This document shows positions 31,265-51,065 of a DNA stretch of 64,000 nucleotides, piece by piece. Position numbers and translations under genes: made by a program. The notes under the pieces are model-generated. The model did no database searches. It saw nothing but the letters and a program-made list of their open reading frames with translations, and was not told the DNA's origin. How positions within the stretch are numbered: position 1 is the stretch's first letter; each line of letters begins with the position of its first letter. Source of the DNA: a virus; IMG/VR virus record IMGVR_UViG_3300021479_000013, positions 1 through 64,000 of that record, one strand, 5' to 3'.

Positions 31265-31816
31265 TTAAAGCTGCTGCCCGCCGTCGAAAAGTATGTCGTA
31301 GAATCTTTCTAGGAACAATTGCTTGTTCACCCGGAAGGATGTCTCCACGATATTTACGTCGGCTGCTAGCTTGTCCTTGCTCCACGAATTCTTCCACTCG
31401 GTCGTCGGCATGATCTGCGCTTTCTCAGCGTAAAGCATTTGATTGTCGATCTCGTGGATTATCTCCGGGTCCTTCTCGTCCAACCCGAATCTGTTATAAA
31501 TCATCCCTTGAATTGGGGCCTCGATCTTTCGGTACTCGACGCCTGCGGGGGTGAAGTGTTTCAAAGGCCTATTTACATCTCCTATGTATGTTTCGCTCGC
31601 GTCATGAAGGAGGAATCGGAGAGCGTACCACTTCGGCACGAGGTAGCTGCCGAGTCGGCTGTGCTGCGATACCGGGTACGGAAAGCGGCAGTGGCCTGTA
31701 AACCTGTTGCACTGGCTAGACGAGTGCGCGATATCCTCGATGCACACCATCTCCGGAGTCGGCTCCAGTATGTCGAAGTACAATCCGGTCGAGGTGACTA
31801 TCGTCGCTTGGCTCAA
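31265..31816 (-). CDS. HD-domain phosphohydrolase (YfbR-like nucleotidase family), 183 aa
   Basis: The H...HD...D layout is visible: His31, His52, His71-Asp72 in LLHDASETYIGDVNRPLK with Asp80. Phage members of this family are thought to remove phosphate from (d)NMPs or related nucleotides. The start is TTG at 31816 with GAGGACGG upstream, one base after the previous stop. The first 74 codons are nearly identical, in DNA too, to the start of the chimera at 32042-32635. Confidence 0.85.
   Translation of the reverse strand: MSQATIVTSTGLYFDILEPTPEMVCIEDIAHSSSQCNRFTGHCRFPYPVSQHSRLGSYLVPKWYALRFLLHDASETYIGDVNRPLKHFTPAGVEYRKIEAPIQGMIYNRFGLDEKDPEIIHEIDNQMLYAEKAQIMPTTEWKNSWSKDKLAADVNIVETSFRVNKQLFLERFYDILFDGGQQL
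31597..31816. repeat. Direct repeat, copy 1 (HD 5' region)
   Basis: About 220 bases, almost identical to 32414-32635 in the same orientation, covering the first 74 codons of two genes. The few differences include the start codon (TTG here, GTG in copy 2). Confidence 0.9.
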
Positions 31817-31817
31817 C

Positions 31818-32030
31818 TTACCGTCCTCGTTCCTTTGCGTTTAATGGACGAAGTTCACCCGCGTAAAAGAACGGAGACAAAAACTCATCTCTCTTATTCT
31901 TGCCCGGCAAGTATCCGTCAGTGAAATAGTATTCTATGGTATGAATACGCCTTACGGCGCTGATGTACCGATAGTCTTTGTTGCCAGTTTTTCTAAGGGC
32001 TACAACTTGTCCTACCTTGAATGTCGTCAT
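31818..32030 (-). CDS. Small basic protein, 70 aa
   Basis: Starts MTTFKVGQVVALRKTG, a KOW/SH3-like beta opening, then YYFTDGYLPG and a basic C-terminus. It lies between the HD gene and the HD/kinase chimera. Function unknown. Confidence 0.6.
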   Translation of the reverse strand: MTTFKVGQVVALRKTGNKDYRYISAVRRIHTIEYYFTDGYLPGKNKRDEFLSPFFYAGELRPLNAKERGR

Positions 32031-32041
32031 TATTTATCCTT

Positions 32042-32635
32042 TTAATTCTCTGAGTTTAACTTCCCTGCGTACTCCAAACTTACCAGGTCCCAGTAAAGAG
32101 ATAGCGTTTTAATTTTCAATTGCTCCAAAGTTCCATTGTTGTCGATAACGTAGTTCGCCATCTCTTTCGTTACAGAGCATGACGTTGAAGGCTCCGGTGA
32201 TACGTGCTTGCTGCGGTCGACCCATATGCTGTAGTCGAATAGGCGCTCGTCGCGCACTGCGTTTAGTTCCACCTCGCTGCGCATGCCGACGTAGATGTCG
32301 TTATCCGCGTAAATCTCCCTGGCGAGCCGAGCCGCGTCCGGCGTATTGAAGGCCTTGATCTGCTCGTACCAGTCTTGACGGTGGTTAACACGGTCGGCGT
32401 AGCACTCGTCCAGGCTCGCGTCGTGCAGGAGGAAGCGGAGAGCGTACTTCATCGGCACGAGAAAGCTTCCGAGTCGGCTGTGCTGCGATACAGGGTACGG
32501 AAAGCGGCAGTGGCCCGTAAATCTGTTGCACTGGCTAGACGAGTGCGCGATATCCTCGATGCACACCATCTCCGGAGTCGGCTCCAGTATGTCGAAGTAC
32601 AATCCGGTCGAGGTGACTATCGTCGCTTGGCTCAC
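32042..32635 (-). CDS. Chimeric protein: truncated HD phosphohydrolase fused to the C-terminal part of a deoxynucleotide kinase, 197 aa
   Basis: Residues 1-74 repeat the HD protein at 31265 up to HDAS. From residue 75 (LDECYADRVNHRQDWYE) the sequence changes to the C-terminal half of phage dNMP kinases: DIYVGMRSEVELNAVRD, YSIWVDRSKH and YVIDNNGTLEQL are typical. The HD part lacks the later Asp of its metal site, and the kinase part lacks its P-loop. The frame is open and keeps its GTG start overlapping the upstream TGA. It is either a decaying fusion or a protein with a new role. Confidence 0.8.
   Translation of the reverse strand: MSQATIVTSTGLYFDILEPTPEMVCIEDIAHSSSQCNRFTGHCRFPYPVSQHSRLGSFLVPMKYALRFLLHDASLDECYADRVNHRQDWYEQIKAFNTPDAARLAREIYADNDIYVGMRSEVELNAVRDERLFDYSIWVDRSKHVSPEPSTSCSVTKEMANYVIDNNGTLEQLKIKTLSLYWDLVSLEYAGKLNSEN
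32414..32635. repeat. Direct repeat, copy 2 (HD 5' region)
   Basis: Second copy of the 220-base repeat. Identity ends where the kinase-like sequence begins, marking the fusion joint. Confidence 0.9.
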
Positions 32636-33201
32636 TTGGTTCCCATAGTTTTCAGGTAGTGGACCAACGTAATCGCTTGCTCTTCGAAGAGCGCTACGTG
32701 CCCGTGCATGTTGCAGAGGATGGAGTCGAACGCGTAACTGTCTAGCTCGATCTCGCTTTGATGATTGCTAGGACGGTCTGACGCTATAAGCCGTCTGCCG
32801 AGTTCGTCGTATCTTTTAATGTCCACGATGTGCGCGCCTAGTTTCTTCAGTCCGTCAGCCTCGTTGAGGTAGCGAACGTCGGAGAATATTACAACGCCTG
32901 CAGTTGGGTCGATCTTTTTAATGCCCTGGTCGAACCAAAAGTTTTCGCCGTTCTGATACCGCTTGGTAGCGCCGACGTCCTGCAGAAGAGGCGCGTCCTT
33001 CCCTATCATGCCATATTCCTTCCTGCACACATCATACAGAGAGTCCGCGAAGCCTATGCCTTGCACTGTAGGCGAAGCGGTCTTGAGACCGTGTTTACGC
33101 TGCATCTCTCTCATCGCGTCGTAGTAGTTCTTAACCGCGTCGACGAACGTTCCCTTGCCCTGACGTGCCTTGTGGCCGAGTCCGATTATGATCTGTGTCA
33201 T
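32632..33201 (-). CDS. Deoxynucleoside monophosphate kinase-like P-loop protein, 189 aa
   Basis: Walker A is GHKARQGKGT (9-18). SDVRYLNEADGLKKLGAHIVD (about 108-128) and IASDRPSNHQSEIELD (about 140-155) match phage T4 gp1-like dNMP kinases, including the RPSNHxSE motif. It phosphorylates dNMPs for replication. Adjacent to HD genes and overlapping the chimera by GTGA. Confidence 0.82.
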   Translation of the reverse strand: MTQIIIGLGHKARQGKGTFVDAVKNYYDAMREMQRKHGLKTASPTVQGIGFADSLYDVCRKEYGMIGKDAPLLQDVGATKRYQNGENFWFDQGIKKIDPTAGVVIFSDVRYLNEADGLKKLGAHIVDIKRYDELGRRLIASDRPSNHQSEIELDSYAFDSILCNMHGHVALFEEQAITLVHYLKTMGTK

Positions 33202-33202
33202 G

Positions 33203-33460
33203 TTATTCTCCCGATTCCATTTCCTGCCGACGTTTCAGTCTGGCGTGGTAGAACAAGTCTAACATATGTGTGCCGACTTCGATAGCCTTATTTTCTTTCA
33301 TCTGGTGCTGCTTCGCTAGGTGCCCGATCAGCGAGAGCGCGAAGCCTGTGCCTAAATACTTGTGGCAGTCCTTGCAATCGATCACGCCGTACTCGGGCAG
33401 CTCGATCTGAATAGGCTGGACCTTGGGTCCGAATATCCAGCGGTGAACCATTGATAGCAT
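33203..33460 (-). CDS. Hypothetical zinc-finger-like protein, 85 aa
   Basis: CKDCHKYLGTGFALSLIGHLAKQH has the C-x2-C...H-x4-H spacing of a C2H2 finger. Start ATG 33460 overlaps the previous stop by one base. Function unknown. Confidence 0.62.
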   Translation of the reverse strand: MLSMVHRWIFGPKVQPIQIELPEYGVIDCKDCHKYLGTGFALSLIGHLAKQHQMKENKAIEVGTHMLDLFYHARLKRRQEMESGE

Positions 33461-33648
33461 TAAAGCGCCTCCACTGCCTGGTAGATTACAACGTACCGTT
33501 CCGATATCCAGTTGCCTTGTGCCATTACTGCCATCTGTACAGTCACATTTATTACTTCAAAATGCTGTTCGCTGCCGTGTTGATAAACAAACGCGTTCAC
33601 CTGCTCCGCGCTGTTAAAAACCTTGGCGTAAGTTGCTGGGTTCTTCAT
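33460..33648 (-). CDS. Hypothetical protein, 62 aa
   Basis: Start ATG 33648 with GAGGGGAGC upstream and an ATGA overlap with the previous gene; a longer frame to 33765 would only be a shadow of that gene. Starts MKNPATYAKVFNSAEQVN, an alpha-beta pattern. No family recognised. Confidence 0.6.
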   Translation of the reverse strand: MKNPATYAKVFNSAEQVNAFVYQHGSEQHFEVINVTVQMAVMAQGNWISERYVVIYQAVEAL

Positions 33649-33833
33649 GCTCCCCTCTTTGTTGCTTCCCTGATATCGTTCGGCTCCGAGCAGATGGAGC
33701 ACGGTACTACCTTGCGCTCCGGGTTCAGGTCTGTGACCATCCAGAAGCCTGAGCACCGTTGACATCCCAGCTTGCCGTTGAAGTAGATCACGTTCTTCGG
33801 CTTCATATCTCGTTTCGGTTTACGTTCTTCCAT
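33645..33833 (-). CDS. Small zinc-ribbon protein, 62 aa
   Basis: CQRCSGFWMV (24-33) and CSICSEPND (45-53) form a standard CxxC-CxxC ribbon with a basic N-terminus. One-base overlap with the metallophosphoesterase stop. Function unknown. Confidence 0.62.
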   Translation of the reverse strand: MEERKPKRDMKPKNVIYFNGKLGCQRCSGFWMVTDLNPERKVVPCSICSEPNDIREATKRGA

Positions 33834-38809: not shown

Positions 38810-38831
38810 CGGTGTTTCCTCCACTGAATGA

Positions 38832-38860
38832 AGTGTCTCATACTTCTCGAAATACGTCAA
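38832..38860 (-). promoter_or_regulatory. Operator-controlled promoter, copy 2
   Basis: Minus-strand TTGACG, 17-base spacer, GACACT. Operator AGTAC-TTTG-GTACC at 38862-38875 abuts the -35. The leader contains CAGTGGAGGAA before ATG 38809. Confidence 0.7.
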
Positions 38861-38861
38861 T

Positions 38862-38875
38862 GGTACCAAAGTACT
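38862..38875. promoter_or_regulatory. GTAC operator, copy 2
   Basis: AGTAC-N4-GTACC dyad (one base off perfect symmetry), overlapping the start of transcription control for the gene at 38531-38809. Confidence 0.65.
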
Positions 38876-39086
38876 ACTTTAATCTGTTTCGATAGCGTCG
38901 CCTTAGACGAACTGGTAACACCGAAGTGGACTCTGAATTACCACCGATGCATTCTGCGATGGCATCTGCGATTGTTGAATCGTCGTCGAGAATTAGAGCG
39001 TGCCCAGATAGAGCATGCTGGTTGCCTTCGTTGTAAAAATTGTTGATCGCTTCCAGGATTTCAATCGCCCTTGCGAGTTTGCTCAT
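38874..39086 (-). CDS. Hypothetical protein, 70 aa
   Basis: Starts MSKLARAIEILEAINNFY, two helices with an acidic middle (DDDSTIADAIAE) and a basic end (RLRRRYRNRLK). The 3' end overlaps operator copy 2. Overlaps the upstream gene end by 26 bases. No family recognised. Confidence 0.58.
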   Translation of the reverse strand: MSKLARAIEILEAINNFYNEGNQHALSGHALILDDDSTIADAIAECIGGNSESTSVLPVRLRRRYRNRLK

Positions 39087-39246
39087 TTTCTGCCTCCGTC
39101 TTCCTAATCTGTGTGTACGTGATATCGAGAATTCGTTTTAAGGTCCCGTTGCCGCGAGCGCGAGCCCGCCTGTCGGGCTTTGTAGAGCAGTGTCCAGTGC
39201 AATATTTCTGGCCGCACGGTAATCGTGGAGTGCAAAAGTCGCTCAT
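39061..39246 (-). CDS. Small Cys/Arg-rich protein, 61 aa
   Basis: ATG 39246 with GGAGGAGACC upstream and ATGA overlap. CTPRLPCGQKYCTGHCS near the N-terminus has four cysteines and a His, a metal-binding candidate; the rest is basic. Function unknown. Confidence 0.58.
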   Translation of the reverse strand: MSDFCTPRLPCGQKYCTGHCSTKPDRRARARGNGTLKRILDITYTQIRKTEAENEQTRKGD

Positions 39247-39467
39247 GGTCTCCTCCAGGTGTAAGTGTGTGATGGCAGAGAGAGCAACATACTGCCGAGA
39301 TAACTTTGCTTGCAGTATCCCCACAAAGTGACATGTCCTGTCCTGATGGCTTCTAGCGTTTGATATCTCCTGAGGCCGAGCCCGAATAGATACCACGCGT
39401 TGCCTGCAGCTTGCGTTGGGTTGGCGCTGGCAATCTCCCTGACTTCGAACGGCGCTTTAATTTTCAT
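39243..39467 (-). CDS. Hypothetical protein, 74 aa
   Basis: ATG 39467 with GGTGGAGAGA upstream; the ATG overlaps the stop of the previous gene. Starts MKIKAPFEVREIASANP; soluble with an aromatic C-terminus. No family recognised. Confidence 0.58.
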   Translation of the reverse strand: MKIKAPFEVREIASANPTQAAGNAWYLFGLGLRRYQTLEAIRTGHVTLWGYCKQSYLGSMLLSLPSHTYTWRRP

Positions 39468-39604
39468 TCTCTCCACCCGTGTTCTTTCATTCGCTCGATA
39501 CACTGGTCGTATCTGGCCATCCTCGCGGCGTGCTTGCGGTCGGTGTGCTGTTGCCTTACGATGTAGGCCAGGAGGGCTACAATCGCGGTGAGTAAGTATA
39601 TCAC
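39464..39604 (-). CDS. Small membrane protein, 46 aa
   Basis: GTG start at 39604 with CAGGAGGCAGTC upstream. One hydrophobic helix at the N-terminus (MIYLLTAIVALLAYIV) and a basic cytoplasmic tail (RQQHTDRKHAARMARY). Overlaps both neighbours by 4 bases. Function unknown. Confidence 0.58.
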   Translation of the reverse strand: MIYLLTAIVALLAYIVRQQHTDRKHAARMARYDQCIERMKEHGWRE

Positions 39605-39786
39605 GACTGCCTCCTGGTTGCTTTCCAGGTGTAGAAAATTTTTGCGTGGGACTCGTATCCGTCCGGGTAGTTATCGGCGTACCAGACGGCGTACAACGTG
39701 GCGTTGCCTTCTGACAGCCCCTGCCTATCCACCGCGTATGCCGCCGCGTGCCGTAGAATAAATTCGCGAAGGTCTCTCTTACTCAC
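39601..39786 (-). CDS. Hypothetical protein, 61 aa
   Basis: Starts MSKRDLREFILRHAAAYAVDR; an amphipathic helix then a Tyr-rich part (LYAVWYADNYPDGY). ATG overlaps the previous stop region. No family recognised. Confidence 0.55.
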   Translation of the reverse strand: MSKRDLREFILRHAAAYAVDRQGLSEGNATLYAVWYADNYPDGYESHAKIFYTWKATRRQS

Positions 39787-39950
39787 GACTTCTCCAATAT
39801 AGCGTTTGTGTTAATCGGCGTTGTGGGCGGCAAAAGAATAAGGCCTTTGTTTATAGAGAACGCGATAGCATAGCGCTGCTCTTGAGTTAATCCCGCATCC
39901 CCTAAGTTGAGAAGTTCGTCCAGGATTCTAATTGCTTTCTCTTTGTACAT
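39783..39950 (-). CDS. Hypothetical protein, 55 aa
   Basis: First gene after operator promoter copy 3; ATG 39950 has GTGGAGGAAGAC upstream. Starts MYKEKAIRILDELLNLGDAG, helical N-terminus. ATGA overlap with the next gene. Function unknown. Confidence 0.6.
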   Translation of the reverse strand: MYKEKAIRILDELLNLGDAGLTQEQRYAIAFSINKGLILLPPTTPINTNAILEKS

Positions 39951-39969
39951 GTCTTCCTCCACTGTTAGA

Positions 39970-39998
39970 AGTGTACCGCGAACCCGAGTTTAATGCAA
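39970..39998 (-). promoter_or_regulatory. Operator-controlled promoter, copy 3
   Basis: Minus-strand TTGCAT, 17-base spacer, TACACT, with operator at 40000-40013 directly upstream of the -35 and TAGTACTA at 40023-40030. Confidence 0.7.
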
Positions 39999-39999
39999 T

Positions 40000-40013
40000 A
40001 GTACGGAAGTACC
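40000..40013. promoter_or_regulatory. GTAC operator, copy 3
   Basis: AGTAC-GGAA-GTACC on the plus strand; the second palindrome TAGTACTA at 40023-40030 overlaps the stop codon region of the papain-like gene. Confidence 0.65.
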
Positions 40014-40027
40014 GATCTTTGATAGTA

Positions 40028-40576
40028 CTAAAGCTGCGCCAGCTTGGCTGCGACCGCGCGCCTCTGGTATTCCTCCGCGTCAAACCTAGGACGGGTCTCG
40101 GCTGGCGCGACTACAGGTGTCCACACGTTGGGCGGCGGCATCAAGGACGCGGCTGGGACCTGTTTAGACGTCATCTTGACCTGGATAGCCACCCGCATCC
40201 TGGCGCGCGTCTTACTGCCTTGTACGTTGTCGTACACCACACCGTCAGTTAAGGCAAACGCGTGAGTCGTGCAGCAGAGGAAGAAACGGCCTTCCTTAGG
40301 TAGTCTATACATAAAGTGTTGGACCGTGGGACGCATATGCGAGTTTGTGAAAACCGATTTGTATTCTGAGACGATGCCCTCGGCCTTCAGGTCAGAGAGA
40401 ACCTGGTCGATCAGGATTATCTTAGTACCCTTACGGGAACGACGGCCTTTCGCCTTAAGTCTGGAGTGAATGTCCGCATAAGGCAGGCCGGTGGTATTGG
40501 CCAGTGCGATGACCGCGCAGTCGTTCGTCTCGCCTAGTATGCGGTCCTTGGTGACGCCGAGAGATGTCTTGAACAC
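40028..40576 (-). CDS. Papain-like cysteine peptidase-fold protein, 182 aa
   Basis: ETNDCAVIALANTTGLPYAD (Cys20) followed far downstream by CCTTHAFALTDGVVYDN (His105, Asp116) gives the Cys-His-Asp/Asn order of C39/papain-like folds. I choose the GTG start at 40576: it lies behind GTGGAGGAACACCAA and after promoter copy 4, while a frame opened at 40627 would start inside the -35 box. It may be a protease or an inactive relative. Confidence 0.65.
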   Translation of the reverse strand: MFKTSLGVTKDRILGETNDCAVIALANTTGLPYADIHSRLKAKGRRSRKGTKIILIDQVLSDLKAEGIVSEYKSVFTNSHMRPTVQHFMYRLPKEGRFFLCCTTHAFALTDGVVYDNVQGSKTRARMRVAIQVKMTSKQVPAASLMPPPNVWTPVVAPAETRPRFDAEEYQRRAVAAKLAQL

Positions 40577-40598
40577 TTGGTGTTCCTCCACTGGATAC

Positions 40599-40627
40599 AT
40601 GGTCTCATGGAACCGAAATTGGTGCAA
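40599..40627 (-). promoter_or_regulatory. Operator-controlled promoter, copy 4
   Basis: Minus-strand TTGCAC, 17-base spacer ending CATGA, GACCAT. Operator here is degenerate: TACTAGTACC at 40629-40638. The CAGTGGAGGAA leader is conserved. Confidence 0.65.
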
Positions 40628-40628
40628 T

Positions 40629-40638
40629 GGTACTAGTA
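40629..40638. promoter_or_regulatory. Degenerate GTAC operator, copy 4
   Basis: Plus-strand GGTACTAGTA; only one full GTAC half-site with an overlapping ACTAGT palindrome. Confidence 0.45.
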
Positions 40639-40662
40639 GACAATTCTTTGGCGACCGAATTG

Positions 40663-40854
40663 CTAGCGCCCTCGTGCCAGTGTAATCAGTCCGGCCTGGT
40701 CTAACATCTTGGCCGCGAAGTGCGGGTTAGCGCCCTGGGGATTCTCGACGCCGTCTATCTCGCCGTTCTCGCACGCGTCTGAGAACCAGCCTAGAATATT
40801 GTCGGCTGAGACCACGCGGTTATCGGGGTACAGGATGTGGAATGTCTCGGACAT
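40663..40854 (-). CDS. Hypothetical protein, 63 aa
   Basis: Starts MSETFHILYPDNRVVSADN and has GWFSDACENGEIDGV; acidic alpha-beta mix. One-base overlap with the upstream stop. No family recognised. Confidence 0.58.
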   Translation of the reverse strand: MSETFHILYPDNRVVSADNILGWFSDACENGEIDGVENPQGANPHFAAKMLDQAGLITLARGR

Positions 40855-41159
40855 TACCGACCTCCTGCTAGCTTAGCCATCGCGTTGTTGTAGTCTACGG
40901 TCCAAGGATTCGAGTCGGAGAAGACCACGAAATTACTCCTGGGGTCTATCTTGTCGTGGGCGCACATCTTGTTCCAGAGATTCTTTACCACGAATTTCTG
41001 GGGGTTGGCCAATTCTGCCTTGCCAGTCTCAGGGTTAACGGGGAGAATTGATGTCTCGCCGTTTGACGCGCGCAAGACTCGAAACTCAACGCCCACGTAT
41101 GTCTTGGCCATATTGTTTAGGTGCCGCCTGATTACCTGCTGCGATGCTCGTGCTCCCAT
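40854..41159 (-). CDS. Hypothetical protein, paralogue of the gene at 38531, 101 aa
   Basis: First gene after operator promoter copy 5; ATG 41159 has GTGGAGGAAACGACA upstream. The C-terminal half (NLWNKMCAHDKIDPRSNFVV, then NPWTVDYNNAMAKL) aligns with the 38531 protein. The N-terminal half is different. Function unknown. Confidence 0.65.
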   Translation of the reverse strand: MGARASQQVIRRHLNNMAKTYVGVEFRVLRASNGETSILPVNPETGKAELANPQKFVVKNLWNKMCAHDKIDPRSNFVVFSDSNPWTVDYNNAMAKLAGGR

Positions 41160-41181
41160 TGTCGTTTCCTCCACTGGATGC

Positions 41182-41210
41182 ATTCTCTCACAACCCCGGA
41201 AAGCGTGCAA
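41182..41210 (-). promoter_or_regulatory. Operator-controlled promoter, copy 5
   Basis: Minus-strand TTGCAC, 17-base spacer ending TTGTGA, GAGAAT. Operator 41212-41225 abuts the -35; TAGTACTA at 41235-41242. Confidence 0.7.
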
Positions 41211-41211
41211 T

Positions 41212-41225
41212 AGTACTTTGGTACC
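41212..41225. promoter_or_regulatory. GTAC operator, copy 5
   Basis: AGTAC-TTTG-GTACC, with TAGTACTA at 41235-41242 covering the stop of the Cys-rich gene upstream. Confidence 0.65.
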
Positions 41226-41239
41226 TATTTTCGGTAGTA

Positions 41240-41410
41240 CTACTTGCGCTCTTCCTCGACCTGCATTATGCAGCAAGGTCCGTACGTGTATCTTGTGACC
41301 GTGAAGACTTCCTGGCCTTCGATAGGCCTGGTGCAGCGAGCGCAACACTTCGCGAGGACACCTCTCAGGCCTTGGATGGTCTCGTGAACTAGCTTCGTTA
41401 GAGGTTTCAC
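41240..41410 (-). CDS. Small cysteine-rich protein, 56 aa
   Basis: GTG start at 41410 overlaps the previous stop (GTGA). KCCARCTRPIEG (21-32) and YGPCCIMQ (43-50) give two cysteine clusters, a likely zinc site. The stop codon lies in the second operator palindrome of copy 5. Function unknown. Confidence 0.55.
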   Translation of the reverse strand: MKPLTKLVHETIQGLRGVLAKCCARCTRPIEGQEVFTVTRYTYGPCCIMQVEEERK

Positions 41411-41631
41411 AGTCCCAACCCCGCGTTCAAGATTACTATCTCGGGGTCTGATAGGACGCGCGATGTGGGGATGCGGTCGGTTAACTTTTTGATTGCTCGA
41501 CGTGTGCGAATGTCGTGGAACAGCATATTTGATTCTGTGCGCAGCTGGTCGTTCTCGTGCATCCTGCTGAATGCCGCGTGAATCAAATTAACTTCAGCTT
41601 GAGATAGTTCTACGATGAATACGTCATTCAT
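41407..41631 (-). CDS. Hypothetical protein, 74 aa
   Basis: Starts MNDVFIVELSQAEVNLIHAA; helical and charged. Overlaps the upstream gene by 8 bases. No family recognised. Confidence 0.58.
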   Translation of the reverse strand: MNDVFIVELSQAEVNLIHAAFSRMHENDQLRTESNMLFHDIRTRRAIKKLTDRIPTSRVLSDPEIVILNAGLGL

Positions 41632-41833
41632 ATGTCACCGCCGACAGTTCAACATTGTACACCTTGCTGCCGTCGGACAGTGTCTCCTCTACAAGGTTAA
41701 GGCGGACGCTGTCAGAATTAATTGTGACGTAAGTCAAGTACTCGTTAACGGGGTGGTCCCGAAACTCTTTTAACATTCTGATAAGTTCATTAAGATTCAC
41801 AGCTGTTTCGGTATCGAGAATTTTCTTGCTCAT
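41624..41833 (-). CDS. Hypothetical protein, 69 aa
   Basis: ATG 41833 with AAAGGGATAACCAG upstream. Starts MSKKILDTETAVNLNELIRM and continues with strand-rich sequence (YLTYVTINSDSVRLNLVEE). No family recognised. Confidence 0.58.
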   Translation of the reverse strand: MSKKILDTETAVNLNELIRMLKEFRDHPVNEYLTYVTINSDSVRLNLVEETLSDGSKVYNVELSAVTYE

Positions 41834-41892
41834 CTGGTTATCCCTTTCCATATAACGATTGTCGCGAACTTGACCGCGAGTAATACGCACAC
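41830..41892 (-). CDS. Possible 20-residue hydrophobic peptide
   Basis: A GTG-started frame whose stop overlaps the next ATG (ATGA): hydrophobic MCVLLAVKFATIVIW plus a basic end. It fills the gap between two genes, but no good ribosome site is seen, so it may not be translated. Confidence 0.3.
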   Translation of the reverse strand: MCVLLAVKFATIVIWKGITR

Positions 41893-41896
41893 CAGC

Positions 41897-42193
41897 TTAG
41901 CCGTTGACATAAGCCACCACTTCCCAGCGTCCGGACTCCATGCGGTAGAATGATGCGGACAGCCAGAGACCCTCGCCAATCTCCTCGTGCAGGCGAGAAG
42001 TGTGATAATCGACGTAGTGAGTAAAGTGATTCTCGCCGACCTCGAAGCCGTGGTCGTGTAAAATCAGTTCTATGGTGAGCATAGGAACTGCCTGGTGGTA
42101 GATGAGACCGAGCTTGTGCAGGTCGGCGTTGACCGCTTGCTTCCTGGCTCGCAGGCTTGGAATCTTTGACTGGCAGTTGGTGCAGAGTGTCAT
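41897..42193 (-). CDS. Hypothetical zinc-binding protein, 98 aa
   Basis: First gene after operator promoter copy 6; ATG 42193 has GTGAGGACACGAAC upstream. MTLCTNCQSKIPS at the N-terminus has one CxxC. The HGFEVGENHFTHYVD stretch faintly recalls GVPVGENFVHFSE of the 38531 protein. Function unknown. Confidence 0.6.
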   Translation of the reverse strand: MTLCTNCQSKIPSLRARKQAVNADLHKLGLIYHQAVPMLTIELILHDHGFEVGENHFTHYVDYHTSRLHEEIGEGLWLSASFYRMESGRWEVVAYVNG

Positions 42194-42215
42194 GTTCGTG
42201 TCCTCACTGTTTTGG

Positions 42216-42244
42216 ATTCTCTCACAACCTAGGAATATAGTCAA
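42216..42244 (-). promoter_or_regulatory. Operator-controlled promoter, copy 6
   Basis: Minus-strand TTGACT, 17-base spacer ending TTGTGA, GAGAAT. The operator is weak: GGTAC-TTTA-GTTTA at 42246-42259. Confidence 0.65.
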
Positions 42245-42245
42245 T

Positions 42246-42259
42246 GGTACTTTAGTTTA
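42246..42259. promoter_or_regulatory. Degenerate GTAC operator, copy 6
   Basis: Plus-strand GGTAC followed after 4 bases by GTTTA: one good half-site and one decayed half-site, at the same place relative to the -35 as the others. Confidence 0.4.
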
Positions 42260-42718
42260 GCCCCACGCTATCGTCTTGTACCAGGCTGGTTCCGCTCCAG
42301 ACTTGGTCAGGATGCTCTGGTATGAGAGAGCGATATCAAGGACGGAGCGCTTCACGTCTACCGTGTAAGCGAATCGTACCTGGGACCTGGAGTCCATTCC
42401 GGCGAAGGTGCACTTGTCTGTAATGACCTGGGTGCTGCCGTCTTCATTCACGTGGATCGATTGAACTTTGAGCCACGAGTATCCGAAGTTTCCGCCGTTT
42501 GTCATAAGCAGGTCTTTGAACTTGTCACCGACCGCCAGCTGGCTAACTGACTTGCTCAGAAGACGTGTGAATAAACTTTGTGCTGCGGTGCCTCGCTTGG
42601 TTAGCGTTTCCTTCTGGCCGCGACACCGGAAACAGGTAGTGCCGTAAGACTGGCAGTATGAGTACTGGCCGGAACCGTCGCAACGTGAGCAGGTCTCGGA
42701 TTCGAATAGCAGGGACAT
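42257..42718 (-). CDS. DnaJ-type zinc-finger protein, 153 aa
   Basis: CSRCDGSGQYSYCQSYGTTC with CFRCRGQ has the CxxCxGxG-like pattern of a DnaJ zinc centre. The rest is strand-rich (FAYTVDVKRSVLDIA). The start overlaps the upstream stop by one base. It may be an adaptor protein; function unknown. Confidence 0.62.
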   Translation of the reverse strand: MSLLFESETCSRCDGSGQYSYCQSYGTTCFRCRGQKETLTKRGTAAQSLFTRLLSKSVSQLAVGDKFKDLLMTNGGNFGYSWLKVQSIHVNEDGSTQVITDKCTFAGMDSRSQVRFAYTVDVKRSVLDIALSYQSILTKSGAEPAWYKTIAWG

Positions 42719-42930
42719 TACTTGCCTCCATATAAGGATACCAACCCGATTGCAACCATATCGCTGAATACCTGGGTCATCACGTTGACCTTAAGATCTT
42801 GGACGGCCAGGTCCAGCTGGCGCTGCATTTCGTGGATGGACGCGGGGTGGGCGAGGGTACGAATATCCTTCGCGAGTAACTCCGCGTAAAGTGCGACTCG
42901 GACGACGCTGCTGATCTTTGTGTTTTCCAT
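42718..42930 (-). CDS. Helical hypothetical protein, 70 aa
   Basis: First gene after operator promoter copy 7. Starts MENTKISSVVRVALYAELLA; nearly all helix. The -10 box ends only about 6 bases before the ATG, so the message may be leaderless, unlike the other copies. Function unknown. Confidence 0.58.
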   Translation of the reverse strand: MENTKISSVVRVALYAELLAKDIRTLAHPASIHEMQRQLDLAVQDLKVNVMTQVFSDMVAIGLVSLYGGK

Positions 42931-42936
42931 GTTTGT

Positions 42937-42965
42937 ATTCTCTCACCGATCTAGATTTGTGTCCA
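42937..42965 (-). promoter_or_regulatory. Operator-controlled promoter, copy 7
   Basis: Minus-strand TGGACA, 17-base spacer ending GGTGA, GAGAAT. Operator 42967-42980 abuts the -35; a second CTAGTACT at 42989-42996. Confidence 0.7.
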
Positions 42966-42966
42966 T

Positions 42967-42980
42967 AGTACTTCGGTACC
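42967..42980. promoter_or_regulatory. GTAC operator, copy 7
   Basis: AGTAC-TTCG-GTACC; the further CTAGTACT at 42989-42996 covers the stop of the gene at 42989-43237. Confidence 0.65.
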
Positions 42981-42988
42981 GAATTTGT

Positions 42989-43237
42989 CTAGTACTTCGT
43001 TGCCTTCATGAATTCCTCGGCTGAGAGCATCCACGCCTCGCTGCCTGTGTCGTACCGTACGCTGATCGCTGGGACTGTGAAACGGCCCGATGTGACCGTG
43101 CCGGTTTGAAAGCATACGCCTAGGTCTTGGGTGACACGGTGTCGGACGCGGTCGTTTACCTTAATCTTGGTCGAGAGCGTTTGGTTGAACTGCGCGCCCT
43201 GGTTTGGTTCACCGAATAAAAGTGTGAATAGACTCAT
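42989..43237 (-). CDS. Hypothetical protein, 82 aa
   Basis: Starts MSLFTLLFGEPNQGAQFN and then reads as a small beta barrel (KVNDRVRHRVTQDLGVCF, TGTVTSGRFTVPAISVRYD), like the KOW-type proteins nearby. ATGA overlap with the upstream gene. Function unknown. Confidence 0.58.
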   Translation of the reverse strand: MSLFTLLFGEPNQGAQFNQTLSTKIKVNDRVRHRVTQDLGVCFQTGTVTSGRFTVPAISVRYDTGSEAWMLSAEEFMKATKY

Positions 43238-43446
43238 GACTTCCTCGCTTTCATATCTTGTGCTATCTTGCCTTCGTCGAGTCGCTTGCTCACTTCGAGC
43301 CTTAATACCGTTGTGACCAGTTTGCCGTCTTGCCAGCTCTCCTCGAATTCGCGGCAGGTGCGGCCTTGTTTGATCGCGTGTGTGACCAGCTGGGCTCGCA
43401 GTTCGTGGCCTCTAGGGCTGTTGGGGAATGTGAATGAGTCTGTCAT
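43234..43446 (-). CDS. Hypothetical protein, 70 aa
   Basis: Starts MTDSFTFPNSPRGHELRAQL; charged, helical (EFEESWQDGKLVTTVLRLE). ATGA overlaps at both ends. No family recognised. Confidence 0.58.
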   Translation of the reverse strand: MTDSFTFPNSPRGHELRAQLVTHAIKQGRTCREFEESWQDGKLVTTVLRLEVSKRLDEGKIAQDMKARKS

Positions 43447-43658
43447 TCTATCTCTCCTAGATTTACTGGCGTAAAGCTCTTATCGACCTTATAAAATTTC
43501 TCTCCGTTGCAAACCATGTCACGACGGCCTAGAAAACCGAGGTGCTGCCATGTCTTGCGATCACAGCAGGAACATTCAAATAGGCCCTTATAGCTCTTTC
43601 CTACGTAATGGGTCATTCGAACGTTTCGATTGCAGACCGTTGGTTCATGTGGTGTCAT
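43443..43658 (-). CDS. Small zinc-binding protein, 71 aa
   Basis: First gene after operator promoter copy 8. ATG 43658 has GTGAGGAACACC upstream. LFECSCCDRKTWQHLGF carries a cysteine cluster that may bind zinc with Cys9 and a later Cys. Function unknown. Confidence 0.6.
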   Translation of the reverse strand: MTPHEPTVCNRNVRMTHYVGKSYKGLFECSCCDRKTWQHLGFLGRRDMVCNGEKFYKVDKSFTPVNLGEIE

Positions 43659-43677
43659 GGTGTTCCTCACTGGTTGC

Positions 43678-43706
43678 ATCGTCTCATGCCTTGGGATTGG
43701 AGTCAA
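43678..43706 (-). promoter_or_regulatory. Operator-controlled promoter, copy 8
   Basis: Minus-strand TTGACT, 17-base spacer ending GCATGA, GACGAT. It lies within the 3' end of the repressor gene, whose stop is at 43684-43686. Confidence 0.7.
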
Positions 43707-43830
43707 TAGTACGAAAGTACTGTTCTATGATCGAGCGGACGATACAGGCAAGGGAGACCTGGCGCTGGGTTGCTAAGGACTGGAGTCTGACCAGCATGTC
43801 GGGCTTGAATTGGAGAAGGACTCGTTTCAT
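43684..43830 (-). CDS. Ribbon-helix-helix (Arc/CopG-like) repressor, 48 aa
   Basis: MKRVLLQFKPDMLVRLQSLA begins with the beta strand that reads DNA in this fold, followed by two helices (RQVSLACIVRSIIEQYF). I choose ATG 43830 because GAGGTGAG precedes it; a frame to 43872 would start upstream of the promoter -10. Its own promoter contains an AGTGATATCACT palindrome between -35 and -10, so autorepression is likely. Whether it also reads the AGTAC-N4-GTACT operators is unknown. Confidence 0.75.
   Translation of the reverse strand: MKRVLLQFKPDMLVRLQSLATQRQVSLACIVRSIIEQYFRTIDSNPKA
43708..43721. promoter_or_regulatory. GTAC operator, copy 8
   Basis: Perfect AGTAC-GAAA-GTACT dyad next to the -35 of copy 8, inside the repressor coding sequence. 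Confidence 0.65.
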
Positions 43831-49438: not shown

Positions 49439-49523
49439 TGGGCTGTGGCTCAACTGGTACAGCAGGTGACTGTTAATCACCCAGTGCGAAAGCACATTAC
49501 AGGTTCGAATCCTGTTGGCCCAG
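49439..49523 (+). tRNA. tRNA-Asn (GTT) with long variable arm
   Basis: Acceptor TGGGCTG/TGGCCCA (two wobble pairs), D-loop AACTGGTA, anticodon stem GGTGA/TCACC with loop CTGTTAA (anticodon GTT at 49472-49474), T-arm ACAGG-TTCGAAT-CCTGT. The variable region (49482-49498) is 17 bases with a GTGC-GAAA-GCAC stem, as in class II tRNAs (Ser, Leu, Tyr). The 3' end reads G then CA, so CCA is not encoded. Confidence 0.82.
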
Positions 49524-49939
49524 CAATGAGCAGAACAATTTTAGAGACTGGTGCTGCCGGACTAGAAGGACGTTATCCGGGCGAGTCTCTGAAGGCGTTG
49601 TACAACAGAGAGAACAAAAAATCCCAGGGTAGCTCCCGTGGGCCTGTATCCTCGCTAGGATAAGTTCTCTCGCTCATCAAAAATGAGCCAAGCGCGTAGG
49701 GACCGCGCGCTGATTAAATAGTCCCTCAATTTTGTAGTTTGGGAAGTAGGCGTCAGGTATAAAGGCATAACCCGAGCGCCCTCGACAACCCAAACGTGTC
49801 TACGATTTCGGGGCCAGTGTGCAGCGTAAGCTGGCAGCGTGAGCCGATTAGCGACTCGTAGCCCCGACCTCTTTACCCTTATAGTACCCGTTAACCAGCT
49901 TAACGACCACTATAAGGGTACATAAGTTCAGGAGCAACG
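49524..49939 (+). other. Gene-free stretch with a series of stem-closed RNA-like units
   Basis: 49608-49671: 8-bp closing stem GAGAGAAC/GTTCTCTC holding two hairpins (CCCA/TGGG, TATCC/GGATA), then GCTCAT/ATGAGC to 49688. 49737-49795: GTTTGGG/CCCAAAC. 49800-49866: CGGGGC/GCCCCG and CTACGA/TCGTAG, which interleave. 49874-49920: TACCCTTATAGT/ACTATAAGGGTA with inner GTTAA/TTAAC. None has a tRNA T-loop. A short frame 49526-49663 lacks a ribosome site and is not called. Confidence 0.45.
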
Positions 49940-50026
49940 ATGTCAATCATATTTGAATTGATCGGAGGCGTGCTGTTTTTTATCTTGCTCGCCTCGTGGC
50001 TCTTCAAGTCGCCTAAGGGCGAATAA
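49940..50026 (+). CDS. 28-residue membrane peptide
   Basis: ATG 49940 with AGGAG at the right spacing, right after the 12-bp hairpin at 49874-49920. The product starts MSIIFELIGGVLFFILLASW and ends in a charged tail (FKSPKGE): one membrane helix. Function unknown; size and type fit small holin-like or regulatory peptides. Confidence 0.55.
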   Translation: MSIIFELIGGVLFFILLASWLFKSPKGE

Positions 50027-50050
50027 ATTTTTCACTCCCGGTAAATCTAT

Positions 50051-50111
50051 AAGTCGGAACTGAGAAGCCGAGCCGGGACAATTTTTACCGTTCTCTGGAT
50101 AGTCCCGACTT
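50051..50111 (+). ncRNA. Possible structured RNA
   Basis: AAGTCGG/CCGACTT close a 61-base unit with an inner GAGAA/TTCTC stem; GCCGGGAC could pair alternatively with GTCCCGAC. No tRNA T-loop and no coding frame. It may be part of the same structured series as 49204-49920. Confidence 0.35.
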
Positions 50112-50209
50112 CACAGTCTGCTGGAATACCAGTCATGAGGGAGAACAATTGAACACCCACGGCGGGTCTAGAAAACCTGTTTAACGTGGTGGAGTTCTTT
50201 AAAATTTCT

Positions 50210-50283
50210 GGGCTGTTAGTTAAGCGGGATAACGGTTGCCTTGCACGCATCAGTCAGGAGTTCGATTCTCCTACGGTCCACCA
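50210..50283 (+). tRNA. tRNA-Ala (TGC)
   Basis: Acceptor GGGCTGT/ACGGTCC (wobbles tolerated), anticodon stem GTTGC/GCATC with one T-T mismatch, loop CTTGCAC giving TGC, T-arm AGGAG-TTCGATT-CTCCT, discriminator A and encoded CCA. Confidence 0.85.
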
Positions 50284-50300
50284 ATTTGACTCGGTGACAT

Positions 50301-50543
50301 ATGACGATATCAGACGCAGCCTCAATCGCAGCACTGGTAGTCGATCTAGTCGCCTTGTATTTTCTAATCGGCATTTGGAAGGACGACAGGGCTATGCGGG
50401 TCGCAGCAGAGGAATCCCTGCAAGTACAAAAAGATTATCTAGGAATGCGGCGTAAGTGGTATGAAGGCCGCACAAAGAAAAAGGACGAAAAGAATGTCGC
50501 TCAGCTTAGACCAACGGATGGCGTTGACGCGGACAATCTGTAA
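50301..50543 (+). CDS. Small membrane protein, 80 aa
   Basis: One membrane helix near the N-terminus (ASIAALVVDLVALYFLIGIW), then a charged helix and basic tail (RTKKKDEKN). It follows the tRNA by 17 bases; GGTGACAT is a weak ribosome site. Overlaps the next small frame by 50 bases. Function unknown. Confidence 0.58.
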   Translation: MTISDAASIAALVVDLVALYFLIGIWKDDRAMRVAAEESLQVQKDYLGMRRKWYEGRTKKKDEKNVAQLRPTDGVDADNL

Positions 50544-50598
50544 TATCGTCGGGGTCATCATCTCAATCGTGTACGTGATATGGGTGATGAGCAAGTAA
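50494..50598 (+). CDS. 34-residue membrane peptide
   Basis: ATG 50494 is preceded by AAAGGACGAAAAG and lies out of frame inside the end of the previous gene. Product starts MSLSLDQRMALTRTICN and has a hydrophobic helix (IVGVIISIVYVIWVM). The nested start with a good ribosome site favours a real gene. Function unknown. Confidence 0.5.
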   Translation: MSLSLDQRMALTRTICNIVGVIISIVYVIWVMSK

Positions 50599-50633
50599 AA
50601 TTTAAACGACTTTAAACGAGTTTAGGAGAACAA

Positions 50634-50981
50634 ATGTTTACACCTCCAGCAGGCACATGGACCACGGGACAGACGGCTATCCTGGCAGCACTAGTTCTCA
50701 CCACGCTCGTAGCAGTGTTAGGCGACGCGTATACCACGATGGCAGGATTGGCTAAAGGCCTCGCGGAAGGTAACCCGGTCATGAAGTTTTTCTTCTCTAA
50801 GATCGGTCAGTCGCTGACGGCATTCCTCTCAGCGGTCGCGGTACTGGCATTCGGAACTGTCGTCGCGGCGCACAGCCTCGGCGCGGCTTACGTGTTCTTC
50901 GGCGGCGTCACAATCGCAGAAGGCATCGTAACCCTTCGCAACTATTTGAAGCTGAAGGCAGCAAAGATTTCTTTGAAATAA
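50634..50981 (+). CDS. DUF5658-like integral membrane protein, 115 aa
   Basis: Three hydrophobic helices: AILAALVLTTLVAVLGDAY, SLTAFLSAVAVLAFGTVVAA and AAYVFFGGVTIAEGIVTL. GDAYTTMAGLAKGLAEGNPV matches the D-x-x-x-T...E-x-N-P signature of the DUF5658 type. GGAGAACAA precedes the ATG. Function of the family is unknown. Confidence 0.68.
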   Translation: MFTPPAGTWTTGQTAILAALVLTTLVAVLGDAYTTMAGLAKGLAEGNPVMKFFFSKIGQSLTAFLSAVAVLAFGTVVAAHSLGAAYVFFGGVTIAEGIVTLRNYLKLKAAKISLK

Positions 50982-50990
50982 ATTTTCTAA

Positions 50991-51065
50991 GCCTTGATGA
51001 TCTAGCGGTCATGATGTCGCACTTGTAATGCGAACGCCGAGGTTCGACTCCTCGTCGAGGCCCCA
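50991..51065 (+). tRNA. tRNA-Thr (TGT)
   Basis: Acceptor GCCTTGA/TCGAGGC, anticodon stem TCGCA/TGCGA with loop CTTGTAA (TGT), T-arm CGAGG-TTCGACT-CCTCG, discriminator C and encoded CCA. It starts 9 bases after the stop of the previous gene. Confidence 0.88.

Follow-up and report, generated by a model that had tools for sequence, protein, structure and literature searches.

An HD-phosphohydrolase/kinase chimera in an environmental phage, probably the scar of a kinase-gene replacement

An open reading frame (ORF) of 197 codons in a phage genome begins as a copy of an HD-phosphohydrolase gene and ends as the back part of a kinase gene, which raises the question of how such a chimera came about and whether it has any role. 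The window analysed, i.e. the whole stretch of 64,000 bases presented, corresponds to bases 1-64000 of a virus record 82.4 kb in length, and the sole source of the phage is a collection of environmental viruses. Along the minus strand, a 62-aa ORF, an 85-aa ORF, an intact kinase gene (kinA), the chimera, a 70-aa ORF, the complete HD gene, two 116-aa ORFs and a 240-aa gene that is exonuclease-like by eye follow one another (Table 1). When 2.1 kb surrounding the locus was compared with the phage collection at the DNA level, no match was returned. Elsewhere in the window, a family of spaced repeats of 44-52 nt, several beginning with TTCCTCCACTG, extends over 5 kb (38816-43713), a GGC-rich array of short-period repeats that is possibly a low-complexity coding stretch occupies 9-228, and three tRNA genes (Asn, Ala and Thr) lie ~700-800 bases apart at 49439-51065.

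Table 1. Features of the chimera locus, with positions in the window
Feature	Position	Strand	Remarks
62-aa ORF	33645-33833	-	Zinc-ribbon look, judged from cysteines
85-aa marker gene upstream of kinA	33203-33460	-	84% identical homologue in relative L001, directly before kinB
kinA, intact kinase A	32632-33201	-	P-loop GHKARQGKGT; phrog_139, E 4e-19
Chimeric ORF, 197 aa	32042-32635	-	HD head (codons 1-74) plus kinase-B tail (123 aa)
Repeat copy, HD head in chimera	32414-32634	-	95% identical to 31595-31815
8-nt microhomology ACGCGAGC at joint	32414-32421	-	Common to HD and the kinB of relative L002
Kinase-B tail	32042-32413	-	From kinase residue ~58 on, P-loop part missing; relatives carry intact kinB
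70-aa ORF between chimera and HD	31818-32030	-	Searches returned zero relatives
Repeat copy in complete HD gene	31595-31815	-	221 nt, pairs with 32414-32634
Complete HD gene, deoxyribonucleoside 5'-monophosphate phosphatase family	31265-31816	-	TTG start; phrog_318, E 1.6e-51

In an initial annotation made from the sequence alone, the ORF had been described as an HD head on a dNMP-kinase tail, and this is confirmed by a direct repeat and by the match of the tail to intact kinases of related phages. The repeat, 221 nt long and 95% identical, spans codons 1-74 of both the HD ORF and the chimera, and is far beyond chance. The joint, placed by that annotation after the residues HDAS, was located at 32414/32413, where HD codons 1-74 run in frame into a tail of 123 residues. 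The retained start codon and open frame were likewise borne out: the GTG start overlaps the kinA stop by 4 nt (GTGA) and internal stops are absent, with five and three stops present in the two other frames of the tail DNA. A degenerate pattern of the joint (HDAS-LDECYA) had no occurrence in viral contigs, and the joint is thus known from the record of the window alone. Three details go beyond the initial annotation, namely the intact kinA directly upstream, the 70-aa ORF and an uneven distribution of the differences between the two repeat copies.

The second half of the HD metal site and the kinase P-loop are both missing from the chimera, as had been noted. Of the 296 positions of the HD profile phrog_318, the chimera covers 96-168 only (with residues 2-74), whereas the complete HD gene covers 96-267. 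The chimera keeps H31, H52, H71 and D72, while the family-invariant E75 and D124 fall in the missing half; the metal-site roles of these residues (H..HD..D and the glutamate after HD) are our assignment by analogy to YfbR. On the kinase side, the Walker A P-loop is present in every intact kinB aligned (GHARHGKDT in L001) and absent from the chimera, as are the first strand of the kinase and its initial helices (E5-9, H15-26 and H33-48 in the model). All kinase-family invariant columns after residue 59 (DR..R..W, IWVD and NNG) are retained in the tail, which matches phrog_38514 at E 1.8e-37. A structure model of the chimera, built from a tail-only alignment that left the head without alignment depth, reached a pLDDT of 37.

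The tail derives from a second kinase gene, kinB, being colinear with kinB from residue 56-58 on at an identity of up to 88.5% (L001). An intact kinase in the corresponding place of relatives, for which the initial annotation had suggested looking, was found: kinB of ~173-187 aa with a P-loop lies directly before HD in L001, L002, L004/L005 and L006, and belongs to the same family as the tail. The N-terminal part of kinB occurs nowhere else in the 82.4-kb record. The L001 kinB was modelled with a pLDDT of 89 and adopts an NMP-kinase fold; the first Foldseek match of this model was T4 dNMP kinase (1DEK; E 1.9e-4), and in a second comparison 1DEK (Z 12.3, rmsd 2.9, 159 aligned) was tied with other small-molecule kinases. 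By family resemblance, kinB is likely a dNMP kinase. The resemblance to the T4 enzyme (Pfam DNMK, PF21448) consists of the shared fold and weak DNMK matches, yet identity is ~20% in the structural alignment and the DNMK match lies below the Pfam cut-off; compared with the T4 enzyme, the chimera retains the C-terminal two-thirds only.

Whole members of the kinase-B family with a P-loop were also seen behind a MazG-like stretch in Roseobacter phage RDJL Phi 1 gp18 (L036:2410-3456), annotated as 'Cof hydrolase', and before a thymidylate synthase in RD-1410W1-01 gp31 (L040:1917-3443); the database names of both proteins miss the kinase. The RDJL Phi 1 match to query residues 22-181 was considered as an HD fusion and rejected, as it is a match to a whole P-loop kinase, in a protein whose remainder looks MazG-like rather than HD-like. 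A further candidate, L003:1-4527, considered as a phage with two kinB-HD copies, was set aside as a likely assembly artefact, because its 4.5 kb form an inverted duplicate in which the frames are broken.

The intact gene upstream of the chimera is of a different type. kinA belongs to the phrog_139 dNMP-kinase family and beyond the P-loop has no clear similarity to kinB. A search with kinA alone gave no relatives; these were found by means of an alignment with the kinase of L043. In the same neighbourhood, a kinA-type gene lies directly before HD in L043, L080, L083 and L066/67, and in L043 kinA and HD share the same GTGA overlap as kinA and the chimera in the window. Since the 85-aa marker upstream is also present in L001, kinA sits exactly where kinB would be expected. 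By sequence, the HD gene has its nearest solved relatives in Atu1052 and, weakly, in YfbR, and genome contigs contributed four distant HD matches. Identity to the HD gene of the window is 78-79% in the kinA phages L080/L083, and 79% (L002) and 75% (L004) in kinB phages; judged by sequence, both kinase arrangements occur beside closely related HD genes. The HD gene of the window, behind the 70-aa ORF, starts with TTG; those of relatives start with GTG or ATG.

By sequence, then, two dNMP-kinase-like genes, A and B, which are very distant relatives, alternate in the slot before HD, whose occupant has been swapped more than once. Three changes of kinase type are needed on the HD tree and three on the tree of a flanking gene, while the well-supported branches alone force one change (HD tree) and two (flanking-gene tree). 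Because kinase type follows neither tree, the slot looks repeatedly swapped.

Against this background, the chimera is probably the scar of a kinase-gene replacement through misaligned exchange between a kinA-HD phage and a kinB-HD phage. The window itself reads as kinA-HD on the upstream side and as kinB-HD on the downstream side. The parents would have been a kinA-HD phage and a related kinB-HD phage in which the 70-aa ORF already lay between kinB and HD, unless this ORF was gained later. A crossover out of register would have linked HD, cut after codon 74, with kinB, entered at about codon 58, at an apparent microhomology of 8 nt; this stretch is short, is matched by kinB of L002 and with one mismatch by that of L001, and may differ in the kinB parent's own sequence. 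Such a single crossover would yield the entire order of kinA, HD-head::kinB-tail, 70-aa ORF and complete HD, and its product would retain an unbroken kinase gene (A) alongside an unbroken phosphatase gene. The loss of kinB would thus be tolerable. Codon 63, which reads AAG in the head of the chimera as in the kinA phages L080/L083 and TGG in the HD gene of the window and in the kinB phage L001, weakly fits this direction of exchange, and apart from codons 62-63 the sites that distinguish the head from the complete HD gene are mixed as to parental lineage. The exact parents, one with kinA of the window's own subtype beside a close HD gene and one with kinB followed by the 70-aa ORF, were not found among the relatives.

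The differences between the two HD copies are distributed unevenly: codons 2-37 are identical, and codons 38-74 hold 12 nt differences (binomial P 0.0005; Fisher P 0.001-0.009 versus comparisons with relatives). Such a split is not expected under a uniform clock and suggests later homogenisation of codons 2-37, so that the first 37 codons of the copies were probably evened out by exchange or gene conversion after the crossover. The differences left over may be older than the fusion, provided that the parents were already divergent. The high identity of the repeat, from which the initial annotation had concluded that the event was recent, is therefore a poor clock, part of it probably stemming from homogenisation, and a young fusion stays as one option of two. 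In the tail, 62 of 366 nt differ from L001, and 45 of these differences are at third positions; as most are silent, the gene was still working while most of the divergence accumulated. With every family-invariant residue preserved in the tail, the fusion would be either young or still constrained. Amino-acid-changing differences in the tail, compared between the window branch and the L001 branch, were 10.3 to 4.0 with L002 as outgroup and 9.0 to 9.3 with L004; zero lies within both intervals, and the comparison gave no sign of either relaxation or constraint after the fusion.

Two other origins were weighed against exchange between phages. Over all 74 codons the two HD copies (94-95% identical) resemble one another more than either resembles any relative found, as would equally be predicted if a phage with kinB, the 70-aa ORF and HD had tandemly duplicated its HD head, or slipped on the template, in front of the kinB tail, with kinA then replacing the front of kinB or being inserted over it; the same microhomology would serve for this joint as well. 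Such an intragenomic route nevertheless takes at least two to three events, in which the HD head is duplicated, the front of kinB is lost and kinA is gained, and kinA must land exactly against the HD start with the very GTGA overlap of natural kinA-HD phages, which makes it unlikely. Exchange between two phages is preferred because one event gives the whole order. Accordingly, in the initial annotation's description of the chimera as made by duplication, the chimera itself, its two sources and the option of a relic stand, but local duplication is not the most economical origin, given that kinA occupies the L001 place of kinB and that kinA-HD relatives exist. Alternatively, coexisting kinA-HD and kinB-HD strains may have been fused computationally or, during library preparation, by template switching. 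The contig is an environmental one, the joint appears in no other record and a 112-nt identical run between the copies could confuse an assembler; yet the joint shares 8 nt only, far below assembly word lengths, which makes a false overlap unlikely, the reading frame continues through the joint, and by reasoning the 112-nt run alone allows only one linear path through both copies. An assembly or library artefact is, on balance, distinctly improbable.

As to function, the chimera is best read from its sequence as a relic, the most likely role being none. It is probably translated through the GTGA coupling to kinA, but neither kinase nor phosphatase activity would be expected of the product, as the P-loop part and E75/D124 are missing. 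The initial annotation had left the choice between a relic and a protein of regulatory or new function; the former is supported, and evidence for the latter was not found. A new protein under selection, for instance a regulator acting through binding to the HD phosphatase or the kinase, could draw on the open frame of 197 codons, the translational coupling, the invariant tail residues and the predominance of silent changes relative to L001. However, the truncation of each domain runs through its active site, a young fusion with most of its divergence predating the joint gives the same pattern, the branch comparison indicated neither constraint nor relaxation, and no second phage found carries the gene, all of which leaves this reading very improbable. 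The narrower proposal, in which selection keeps a small protein as a binding partner or regulator of the intact HD phosphatase or of a kinase, e.g. by pairing through the shared HD head, is a long shot; if true, an exchange scar would have become a regulator of phage nucleotide metabolism.

Several elements of the preferred reading, misaligned exchange between two phages, have known counterparts. Phage mosaicism is accepted to arise from illegitimate as well as homeologous recombination (PMC2327257; PMC3029335), and its joints, like that of the window, share almost no sequence, with a gene type swapped within conserved neighbours; the crossover of the window differs in being out of register and inside two genes, leaving a visible partial gene copy and a fragment. 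Among composite viral genes, nucleotide metabolism is an enriched class (PMC4202312), and the chimera resembles these as an in-frame ORF of nucleotide metabolism assembled from segments of two unrelated families, except that both of its catalytic domains are truncated, so that a functional fusion is not expected. In RDJL Phi 1 gp18 (348 aa) and RD-1410W1-01 gp31 (kinase plus thymidylate synthase, 508 aa) the same kinase family is fused to a nucleotide-metabolism protein, but there the kinase is whole and keeps the P-loop that the chimera has lost. Mosaic joints and composite genes are thus already known, and the chimera is a new and clear instance, from one record, of ordinary phage gene shuffling that is unusually easy to read.

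For annotation, an ORF of this kind risks being named after either of its halves although neither domain is whole. For phage biology, the replacement of a kinase is usually visible only as a finished swap, whereas the window apparently catches what is left over from one, including the genes involved, the site of the break and the shared length. The direct repeat is predicted to allow deletion of the kinB remnant and the 70-aa ORF (819 bp) by homologous recombination, which could restore a clean kinA-HD arrangement as in L080. The locus therefore suggests a two-step route for gene displacement.
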